NCBI GenBank assembly: GCA_903929135.1
Contig: CAIYTH010000048.1
Coordinates: 62,001-126,000 of the forward strand
Origin: an uncultured Chlorobiales bacterium
GTDB taxonomy: Bacteria > Bacteroidota > Chlorobiia > Chlorobiales > Chlorobiaceae
DNA: 64,000 nucleotides
Direction: 5' to 3'
Both the position numbers and the translations under genes were made by a program. Shown here one piece after another: positions 30,935 through 36,579 of this stretch. How positions within the stretch are numbered: the first letter of the stretch is position 1; every line of letters starts with the position of its first letter. The notes beneath the pieces were generated by a model. The model saw nothing but the letters and a program-made list of their open reading frames with translations, was not told the origin of the DNA and did not search any database.

Positions 30935-31408
30935 ATGCCTCGTTATACACCTGAACAGCTCCAGAAGCGTAACGCATCGGTCTGGACGAAAGTACAGGGC
31001 ATCCTCGCCCCGATCCAGTTCCTCATTTTCCTGGCCGGCCTCACAGCCACCTGGCTGTTCACGAAAAACCTCTGGATCACCGATTTCGGCTGGATCACCT
31101 TCTTCGTGAGCCTCAAGACGTTCATGCTCGCCCTGATCTTCGTGACGGGCGGATTCTTCGAGCTCGAGGTTTTCGGCGCCTTCGCCTTTGCTCCCGAGTT
31201 CTTCTGGGAGGATTTCGGCAGCGCGATCGCCATGGTGGTGCATATCTCCTATTTCATCCTCTTCTGGATGGGGCTCGACCAGCATATCCTCATCTGGACC
31301 GCCCTGCTCGCCTACACGAGTTATCTGGTCAATGCCGCGCAGTTCGTCATCAGGCTGCTGCTCGAAAAACACAATGAGAAAAAGCTCAAGGCGGGCCAGT
31401 CAGCCTGA
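30935..31408 (+). CDS. bchF: 3-vinyl bacteriochlorophyllide hydratase
   Basis: 157 residues with about four hydrophobic helices (about 22-42, 52-72, 92-112, 118-138), as expected for the membrane-bound BchF/BchV hydratases. These add water to the 3-vinyl group of (bacterio)chlorophyllide. N-terminal RYTPEQLQKRNASVW and WITDFGWITFFVSLK match the family. Green sulfur bacteria have two such enzymes, BchF and BchV. Placement directly before bchC and bchX, whose products act on the same 3-hydroxyethyl intermediate of bacteriochlorophyll a, favours BchF. ATG 30935 is chosen; the upstream extension reads into repeat sequence. Confidence 0.85.
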   Translation: MPRYTPEQLQKRNASVWTKVQGILAPIQFLIFLAGLTATWLFTKNLWITDFGWITFFVSLKTFMLALIFVTGGFFELEVFGAFAFAPEFFWEDFGSAIAMVVHISYFILFWMGLDQHILIWTALLAYTSYLVNAAQFVIRLLLEKHNEKKLKAGQSA

Positions 31409-31430
31409 TTCAAAAGCAGATCAAACAGCG

Positions 31431-32444
31431 ATGAACAAGTCGAAAGCTATCGTTTTCAGCGGGGTAAGGCAGATCGAGCTCAGGGACGTGACGCTCAAGC
31501 CGGTCTCCTCGACCGACGTGCTGGTCGAGACCTGGTGGTCCTCCATCAGCACCGGAACGGAGAAGATGGCCCTCAACGGCCTCATCCCGTCACCACCCTT
31601 CATCTTCCCGTTCATTCCCGGATATGAAACCGTCGGAAAGATCGTGGAGGTCGGTGACCACGTCAACCAGAGCCTCATCGGCAAATTCGCCTACGTGGCA
31701 GGCTCATTCGGCTACCTGGACGTCAACGCGGCATTCGGCGGAGCCTCGCAATACATCGTCTGCCCGGTCGAGAGCATCACGATCCTCGACGGCATCGACA
31801 ATCCCCGGTGCGGCATCGCGCTGCCCCTCGGTGCCACGGCTCTCCATATCGTCGATCTGGCCGACGTGAAAGGCAAGAAAGTGCTGGTGCTTGGTCAGGG
31901 CGCCGTCGGCATCCTGGCCGCCGAACTTTCGAAGCATATGGGGGCGAGCCTGGTTGCGGTGACCGAGCCGCACCAGAACAGGCTCCGCATCTCGACGGCC
32001 GACCTCAGGGTCAACCCCGAAAAGCAGGATGTCTCCGCGGCGCTGGCCGGCAACGAGTTCGACGTGCTCATCGACAGCACCGGCATCATGAGCGCCATCG
32101 AAACGGGCCTCCGCTTCCTGCGCTTCCACGGCACCGTCATTTTCGGCGGCTACTACCAGCGGATGAACATAGATTACTCGCAAGCCTTCGACAAGGAGCT
32201 CTCGTTCATCGCTGCAAGGCAGTGGGCGAAAGGCGACCTGCAGCGTGTCAGGGAACTGATCGCCTCCCGGAAGCTGAACGCCGTGAAGATATTCACCCAC
32301 CGCTGCACGGTCGATGACGACCTGATGTCCGCCTACACGCAGGCCTTCAGCGATCCCGACTGCCTGAAGATGATCATTCACTGGAAGCCGGATGCCGAAA
32401 AGGAAATCGGCTCCGTTCCCGCATCCGACGCCCGAAAAGGCTGA
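31431..32444 (+). CDS. bchC: 3-hydroxyethyl bacteriochlorophyllide a dehydrogenase
   Basis: 337 residues of the zinc-less medium-chain dehydrogenase family. Early segments are AIVFSGVRQIELRDVTL and ISTGTEKMALNG; the NAD-binding fold is VLVLGQGAVGILAAELSKHMG. BchC oxidises the 3-hydroxyethyl group to the 3-acetyl group of bacteriochlorophyllide a. Its spacing of 22 bases from bchF and 7 bases to bchX supports one operon. Bacteriochlorophyll a serves the reaction centre, FMO protein and chlorosome baseplate in green sulfur bacteria. Confidence 0.92.
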   Translation: MNKSKAIVFSGVRQIELRDVTLKPVSSTDVLVETWWSSISTGTEKMALNGLIPSPPFIFPFIPGYETVGKIVEVGDHVNQSLIGKFAYVAGSFGYLDVNAAFGGASQYIVCPVESITILDGIDNPRCGIALPLGATALHIVDLADVKGKKVLVLGQGAVGILAAELSKHMGASLVAVTEPHQNRLRISTADLRVNPEKQDVSAALAGNEFDVLIDSTGIMSAIETGLRFLRFHGTVIFGGYYQRMNIDYSQAFDKELSFIAARQWAKGDLQRVRELIASRKLNAVKIFTHRCTVDDDLMSAYTQAFSDPDCLKMIIHWKPDAEKEIGSVPASDARKG

Positions 32445-32451
32445 GATTCCC

Positions 32452-33564
32452 ATGGCACCCAGAACCATCGCCATCTACGGCAAGGGAGGCATCGGCAAGA
32501 GCTTCACCACCACGAACCTGAGCGCAACCTTCGCCCTGATGAACAAGCGGGTGCTGCAGCTCGGTTGCGACCCCAAGCACGATTCGACAACCTCGCTTTT
32601 CGGAGGCATCTCCCTTCCTACGGTCACCGATGTGTTTGCCGAAAAAAATGCGAGGAACGAACAGGTTGCGGTAAGCGACATCGTCTTCAGAAGGGATATT
32701 CCCGGATTTCCCCAACCCATCTACGGCATCGAGCTCGGCGGCCCGCAGGTCGGCCGTGGATGCGGCGGCAGGGGCATCATCTCGGGATTCGACGTGCTTG
32801 AAAAGCTCGGGATCTTCGAATGGGATATCGACATCATCCTGATGGATTTCCTCGGCGACGTCGTCTGCGGAGGCTTCGCCACGCCGCTCGCCCGCTCGCT
32901 GAGCGAAGAGGTGCTGCTTGTCACGAGCAACGACCGCCAGTCGATCTTCACATCGAACAACATCTGCCAGGCGAACAACTATTTCAGGACGATCGGCGGC
33001 AAGTCCAGGCTGCTCGGGCTGATCGTCAATCGCGACGACGGCAGCGGCATGGCCGAGAAGTATGCCCAAGCAGCAAGCATCAGCGTGCTCATGAAGGTGC
33101 CCTACAACATGGAGGCACGGGATATGGACGACAGCTTCGATTTCGCCGTGAGACTTCCGGAGATCCGGGAGCGGTTCGAGCGGCTTGCGACCGACATCAT
33201 CACAGGGTCCATCGTTCCCTGCGAAGCGAAGGGTCTCGATTTCATGGAATTCGTCAAACTGTTCGGCGAGGTCAGCGAAGAGCTCCCCGCTCCAGCGTCC
33301 GCCGACGAGCTCTTTTCCCGTCATGTGCATGCCGGAAAGCCGGATGCGGATACGGCAGAATCCGTCCCCGACAGCGAACGGCAGCACCTGGCAGCATGCA
33401 TATCCCGGTTGCCTGAATCGGAAAGGGAGATCTACATCCTGCTGGAAATCGACCGCAAAACCACGCTGGAGATCGCAAACGCGAAAAACCTCACCGAGAG
33501 TGAAGTCGAGGAACTGATATCCAGCGCCCGACGATCCCTGAAAAAGCTGTTTTTCGAGAGCTGA
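32452..33564 (+). CDS. bchX: Chlorophyllide reductase iron protein BchX with unusual C-terminal HTH-like tail
   Basis: 370 residues. Residues 1-285 are a NifH-type iron protein: P-loop GKGGIGKSFTT, GCDPKHDST and the two cluster cysteines in GRGCGGRG and DVVCGGFA. BchX passes electrons to BchYZ for reducing chlorophyllide ring B; BchY and BchZ are not in the window. After a linker, residues 310-370 match a sigma-70 region 4-like helix-turn-helix: LPESEREIYILLEIDR, then TTLEIANAKNLTESEVEELI and ARRSLKKLF. Purple-bacterial BchX, about 330 residues as I recall, lacks this to my knowledge. The frame is continuous with no sign of a frameshift. The tail's function is unknown; it could be regulatory or purely structural. 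Confidence 0.92.
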   Translation: MAPRTIAIYGKGGIGKSFTTTNLSATFALMNKRVLQLGCDPKHDSTTSLFGGISLPTVTDVFAEKNARNEQVAVSDIVFRRDIPGFPQPIYGIELGGPQVGRGCGGRGIISGFDVLEKLGIFEWDIDIILMDFLGDVVCGGFATPLARSLSEEVLLVTSNDRQSIFTSNNICQANNYFRTIGGKSRLLGLIVNRDDGSGMAEKYAQAASISVLMKVPYNMEARDMDDSFDFAVRLPEIRERFERLATDIITGSIVPCEAKGLDFMEFVKLFGEVSEELPAPASADELFSRHVHAGKPDADTAESVPDSERQHLAACISRLPESEREIYILLEIDRKTTLEIANAKNLTESEVEELISSARRSLKKLFFES

Positions 33565-33827: not shown

Positions 33828-36236
<2,409 letters not shown>

Positions 36237-36276
36237 AAGATATCATCAATTCAATCAACAGAGGAGCAGTACCCCT

Positions 36277-36579
36277 ATGGCTGAAAAATTGATCGTCGAA
36301 ATTGAAAGCGACCTTGAATACCTTATACCTGAGTATCTCGATGGAAGGCGGCAGGACGTGATCTCCATCAGGGAGGCATTGCAGAACGGTGATTTCGAAA
36401 CGATCAGGATACTTGGGCACAACATGAAGGGAACAGGCGGCGGGTACGGATTCAACAGGATCACCGATATCGGGGGAGAGATACAGTCTTCGGCCCTGTC
36501 CGGAGACGCCGGCTCGCTTGAGAAGCTGGCCGGCGACCTCCAGGATTACCTTGAGAGGGTAACCGTCAGGTACGTGTGA
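36277..36579 (+). CDS. Hpt domain phosphotransfer protein
   Basis: 100 residues comprising a single histidine phosphotransfer domain; the phosphorylated His is in RILGHNMKGTGGGYG (near residue 48). It starts 40 bases after the hybrid kinase with GAGGAG upstream. Hybrid kinase plus separate Hpt is the classical layout of a His-Asp-His-Asp phosphorelay, so this protein probably takes phosphate from the kinase's receiver and passes it to an unlinked regulator. Its stop codon directly abuts the convergent typA stop. Confidence 0.9.
   Translation: MAEKLIVEIESDLEYLIPEYLDGRRQDVISIREALQNGDFETIRILGHNMKGTGGGYGFNRITDIGGEIQSSALSGDAGSLEKLAGDLQDYLERVTVRYV

Follow-up and report, generated by a model that had tools for sequence, protein, structure and literature searches.

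The BchX protein encoded in a 64,000-nt stretch of DNA from an uncultured member of the Chlorobiales (hereafter, the window) ends in a domain that resembles region 4 of sigma-70 factors, and the domain was present in every distinct Chlorobiales BchX that we read. The residues corresponding to those with which ECF sigma factors contact the -35 element were mostly replaced in these tails. We therefore consider sigma-type -35 recognition by the tail unlikely and favor a recruited protein-contact module, a possibility that the preliminary description of this DNA had offered as an alternative to its main reading of DNA binding.

The ORF at positions 32452-33564 (+) of the window encodes a protein of 370 aa, in which a NifH-type body is followed by a partly disordered linker and then by the C-terminal sigma-70 region 4-like domain. 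The protein was identified as BchX by NCBIfam model TIGR02016 (468.4 bits; cut-off, 331.2), and a Pfam Fer4_NifH match spanned residues 4-253. On the basis of these matches the body was assigned to positions 32452-33267 (+; residues 1-272), and its boundary with the linker was placed at a conserved LFG motif. The body contains the P-loop GKGGIGKS, and its cluster cysteines, C104 and C139, lie in GRGCGGRG and DVVCGGFA. The latter two motifs, as well as LPESEREIYILLEIDR, TTLEIANAKNLTESEVEELI, and ARRSLKKLF, were all found in the BchX frame where the preliminary description had placed them. Among 54 BchX sequences, C104, C139, and G15-K16-S17 were invariant, and the first five residues of the P-loop were nearly so (one row is cut there). 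A match to bchC, which occurred at 51 of the 53 bchX loci of named relatives, lies immediately upstream in an open frame at 31188-32444 (+), the bounds being those of the frame rather than of the true start. Both bchY and bchZ were found elsewhere in the genome, above their family cut-offs; by family match, the BchX of the window is probably the electron-donating iron protein of chlorophyllide a oxidoreductase (COR), acting with BchY and BchZ.

The linker (33268-33387, +; residues 273-312) is predicted to be disordered at residues 289-306, where the full-length model of BchX had a pLDDT below 50. In the same model, blocks over residues 311-370 reached a pLDDT of 79-92, and parts of the body near the cluster loops were also weak (50s-60s). 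Linker length ranged from 35 to 127 residues across the Chlorobiales relatives. The long linkers of Thermochlorobacter-like families (L086, L091-L097, L100, and L101) share a motif resembling LGDKxAIGxNAxSLPExDEF, which was absent from the short Chlorobiaceae linkers printed.

The tail domain (33388-33555, +; residues 313-368) was delimited by a profile match, four predicted helices, and a terminal LFF. Positions 4-54 of Pfam model PF08281 (Sigma70_r4_2) matched residues 313-363, with 28.1 bits (E = 1.5e-6) for the whole protein and 32.4 bits (E = 7.2e-8) for the tail alone, against a curated cut-off of 25.7; an HMM search of the tail thus returned a significant helix-turn-helix match, as expected from the preliminary description. 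The other Pfam sigma model, PF04545, gave 20.4 bits, which is under its cut-off of 24.1. When the tail alone was compared to NCBIfam, the best match was Sig70_bacteroi1 (1.8e-8), followed by other sigma families, all under their cut-offs because these apply to whole proteins and only region 4 is present. Region 2, with which ECF sigma factors bind the core enzyme and recognize the -10 element, had no Pfam match at E ≤ 1 anywhere in the 370 aa. A chance match was ruled out by the PF08281 E-values of the window tail and its relatives.

Comparisons of profile and structure pointed in the same direction. A search of the PDB with a profile of 54 tails recovered region 4 of SigE (2h27) at 3e-6, the top match being a repetitive chain named CAP repeat that was reached via repeated weak pieces. 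AlphaFold2, run on the 54 aligned tails, predicted four helices (about residues 307-319, 322-333, 338-345, and 349-369) with a pLDDT of 79.9 and a pTM of 0.60. When the predicted structure was compared to the PDB with Foldseek, the best 50 of 488 matches had titles naming sigma factors or complexes that contain them; the match to sigma factor L had a probability of 1.00 and a TM score of 0.83. The best E-value was 6.5e-3, and none of the 488 matches reached E ≤ 0.001, which is perhaps unsurprising given the small size of the domain. Both the sequence of the tail and its predicted structure thus support a sigma-70 region 4 fold.

In order to map the distribution of the tail, 394 genomes sampled from the phylum were searched; BchX proteins above the TIGR02016 cut-off occurred in 92, all from one order. 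The retrieved loci yielded 76 distinct Chlorobiales BchX proteins from four families, after identical proteins and L089, a 76-residue fragment at a contig end, had been left out; rows L083 and L103 are cut at their 5′ ends. By alignment, the domain was present in 76/76, a count that is not one of independent cases because many of the sequences are close relatives. PF08281 matched at E ≤ 0.01 in 75 of the 76, namely in all of a set of 54 tails that contains the window's own and in 21 of the 22 other distinct proteins, with an E-value of 1e-16 for the tail of a genus-mate. A local fusion or an assembly artifact was thereby ruled out. In a single row, L091 (1633-1698), the terminal LFF is replaced by LFS followed by another 19 residues, which may reflect an assembly error or a change of frame.

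The domain was absent from the 11 proteobacterial plasmid BchX proteins that were read, for which the best E-value with the tail profile was only 2.1. These proteins were all the BchX in the best 60 of 72 matching plasmid records; ten are annotated, and the eleventh (H1) is unannotated but displays the same sequence pattern. The tail is thus not a property of all BchX proteins. The earlier statement that BchX of purple bacteria ends sooner was roughly right, in that no proteobacterial BchX read had a sigma-like domain; those proteins share a C-terminal arm of their own (PAT..DMRG...SLEVVYD). A scan of viral contigs returned no BchX. The tail was also rejected as a general trait of the NifH family, since the 23 NifH-type paralogs listed below the BchX cut-off (matches at E ≤ 1e-60 only) have frames of 278-294 aa, which are too short. 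Because the sample consisted of one phylum plus proteobacterial plasmids, with the Chloroflexota, Acidobacteriota, heliobacteria, and phototrophs of other phyla lying outside it, the tail is not established as specific to the Chlorobiales.

According to PMC6713349, which gives -35 contact positions for SigW and SigE, the recognition helix of SigW contacts the -35 element via T168, K170, T171, R172, and R175. In an ungapped alignment of the tail to SigW (6jhe), part of this helix (T168-R175) corresponds to EVEELISS at 33502-33525 (+; residues 351-358), and the five contact residues are E, E, E, L, and S in the BchX of the window. As controls, we used region 4 of 32 distinct ECF matches in the same and related genomes. 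They came from 34 loci, four from the genome of the window and 30 from strong PF08281 matches, so the set, in which some members are near-identical, leans toward canonical sequences. Three of the four own-genome controls had a Pfam match to region 2, and the fourth (L112) had none at E ≤ 0.01.

The two groups differed at several of the contacts. Serine or threonine at 168 together with lysine or arginine at 175 was found in 0/74 distinct BchX cores but in 20/32 ECF regions, whereas 61/74 cores and only 2/32 controls had neither. An acidic residue occupied position 168 in 52/74 cores compared to 0/32 controls, arginine or lysine was found at 175 in 12/74 compared to 28/32, and serine or threonine at 171 in 11/74 compared to 17/32. 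Two positions did not separate the groups, as a basic residue at 170 was equally common in both (41/74 and 17/32) and one at 172 was, if anything, commoner in BchX (10/74 and 1/32). The net charge of the 51-residue core was -1 in the window BchX and +5 in SigW. Taken together, the replacements suggest that the surface with which the tail would read -35 DNA has largely been lost; weak or non-specific contact with DNA would still be compatible with these sequences.

The tail is under constraint. Median dN/dS was lowest in the body (0.09), highest in the linker (0.39), and intermediate in the tail (0.31). The last value implies purifying selection on the tail, although constraint is much below that on the enzyme body and, on average, weak, since 0.31 is close to the linker value. 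These medians are from 896 of 2850 pairs, with fewer usable values for the tail (670) and linker (621) owing to saturation; about 17 linker residues each of L075 and L082 were scored as body, and in the alignment used for conservation and dN/dS the deletion of one residue in L057 and L062 puts these two rows out of register by one position ahead of residue 336. The most conserved features specific to the tail are the exact C-terminal LFF (74/76) and Cys316 (window 33397-33399), which sits in helix 1 and was found by pattern in 73 of the 76 proteins, the others having S, S, and A. At the equivalent position, ECF controls had A, V, or M in 31/31. Beyond the fold core, L366 (76/76), F367 and F368 (75/76 each), A359 (76/76), R360 (71/76), K or R at 336 (74/76), and E332 (68/76) were also kept.

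Two frames were considered as partners of the tail. Downstream of bchX, at 33828-36579 of the window, we read a hybrid histidine kinase-like frame with a CLQCH sequence, which we take to be a heme c-like motif, followed by a small HPt-like frame; both names are from reading of the frames. The kinase was rejected as a partner, as it was present at at least 3 of the 53 loci and the HPt-like frame at at least 4, the counts being lower bounds because some loci have little downstream sequence. A small sigma region 4-like frame near bchY (C13:186141) was rejected as a split partner, since it comprises only part of the domain and looks unrelated. This frame (L113, 1363-1578) is of HTH type, and its partial PF08281 match (E = 8.7e-5, below cut-off) starts about 290 bases after bchY. 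The region 2-less control, L112 (C5:24240-24347), is a frame of 167 aa in which region 4 was matched only in part and is perhaps a degenerate ECF-like protein.

We give about an even chance to the interpretation that a region 4 domain of an ECF sigma factor was captured by an ancestor of the phototrophic Chlorobiales and now serves, on its tether, as a protein-interaction module that acts in or on COR. The domain would have been fused to BchX through a flexible linker once, in an ancestor common to these phototrophs, and retained ever since while most of its surface for reading -35 DNA was lost. Most likely, the tail would then work through protein contacts that keep BchX within its own dimer, on BchYZ, or on some other partner, with three BchX-specific features, the acidic helix 2, Cys316, and the C-terminal LFF, as candidate contact features, and could in this way tune COR.

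A purely structural role is possible but clearly less probable. In this case the tail would serve only the assembly of COR, i.e., folding, dimer stability, or docking to BchYZ, in place of the terminal arms of the purple-bacterial type, and would have no regulatory effect. Its retention in every distinct BchX would be expected, and so would a difference that we observed: three aligned proteobacterial BchX proteins have an N-terminal extension in addition to the DMRG...SLEVVYD arm, and their BchY proteins have an N-terminal extension, whereas the BchX of the window and the BchY of its genome are without these parts. The BchY comparison comprises one Chlorobiales protein and three proteobacterial ones only, however, and a linker of such variable length is easier to reconcile with a loose tether than with docking in a fixed geometry.

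By analogy with PhyR and NepR, the tail might instead bind an anti-sigma factor or the beta flap of RNA polymerase and so link the state of COR or BchX to transcription, which we regard as unlikely. A sigma fold that is retained although its DNA surface has changed is also what PMC8103513 reports for PhyR, and the genome of the window encodes three ECF-type proteins (L108-L110) that have both region 2 and region 4. Three of the 76 tails also matched the Pfam PhyR_sigma-like model weakly (best E = 1.9e-4), but the match is not telling, as a true ECF protein of this genome scored better (E = 2.4e-5). Moreover, PhyR uses regions 2 and 4, whereas BchX has region 4 only, and the kinase beside bchX is seldom conserved at that place. 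No more probable, in our view, is a sigma mimic built into this pigment enzyme in which the nucleotide or redox state of BchX determines whether the tail is exposed, and in which the tail titrates either RNA polymerase or an anti-sigma factor, so that the iron protein of COR would report bacteriochlorophyll a synthesis to transcription.

Direct action of BchX on transcription through a DNA-binding tail, the main reading of the preliminary description, has become improbable. It would be consistent with the HTH fold and with the basic residues found at 170 in over half of the tails (41 of the 76 proteins) and at 175 in some, but not with the loss of the paired 168 and 175 contacts, the frequent acid at 168, and the negative charge of the core, the contacts being kept more often in ECF controls. 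A decayed fusion without function is more improbable still, as the fast evolution of the tail relative to the body and the altered end of L091 are outweighed by the absence of any loss in four families, the conserved core and LFF, and the dN/dS of the tail.

It is unusual for a domain to be reused in this way, with sigma region 4 retained throughout an order as part of an electron-transfer iron protein, and the case indicates that a Pfam sigma label should not be read as DNA binding. In green sulfur bacteria, COR stands where chlorophyllide a is divided between bacteriochlorophyll a and chlorosome pigments. Since COR draws on this shared chlorophyllide a, a regulatory arm on BchX could help explain why bacteriochlorophyll a is low and chlorosome pigment high. 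The domain is visible by a plain Pfam scan; among open-access papers, searched by title or the start of the abstract, we found none on a sigma region 4-like tail of BchX.

Compared to known systems, the protein of the window resembles the TIGR02016 family in its score, cluster cysteines, P-loop, and bchC neighbor, and differs from the 11 proteobacterial members read in having the sigma-like domain. The tail is like region 4 of ECF sigma factors (PF08281; SigW 6jhe, SigE 2h27, and SigL 6dv9) in sequence profile and predicted fold, but it has no region 2, is joined to an iron protein, and has mostly lost the -35 contacts. PhyR, as described in PMC8103513, has a sigma fold in which the promoter and core contacts are degenerate and which binds a protein, NepR; in the BchX tail, too, the fold is that of a sigma factor, the promoter contacts are degenerate, and the domain is part of a different protein, although PhyR, unlike BchX, has a response-regulator receiver domain. 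In BchL, the iron protein of DPOR, a flexible N-terminus is auto-inhibitory and is released by ATP, according to PMC7948495, which also states that an N-terminal region of this type was not observed in BchX. The tail resembles that segment as a terminal appendage on a sister iron protein, but is a folded C-terminal domain rather than a flexible N-terminal peptide. BchL thus indicates that terminal appendages can regulate iron proteins of this kind, and the two precedents, BchL and PhyR, lead us to favor a tethered interaction module over a structural role, a PhyR-like link to transcription, or direct DNA binding.
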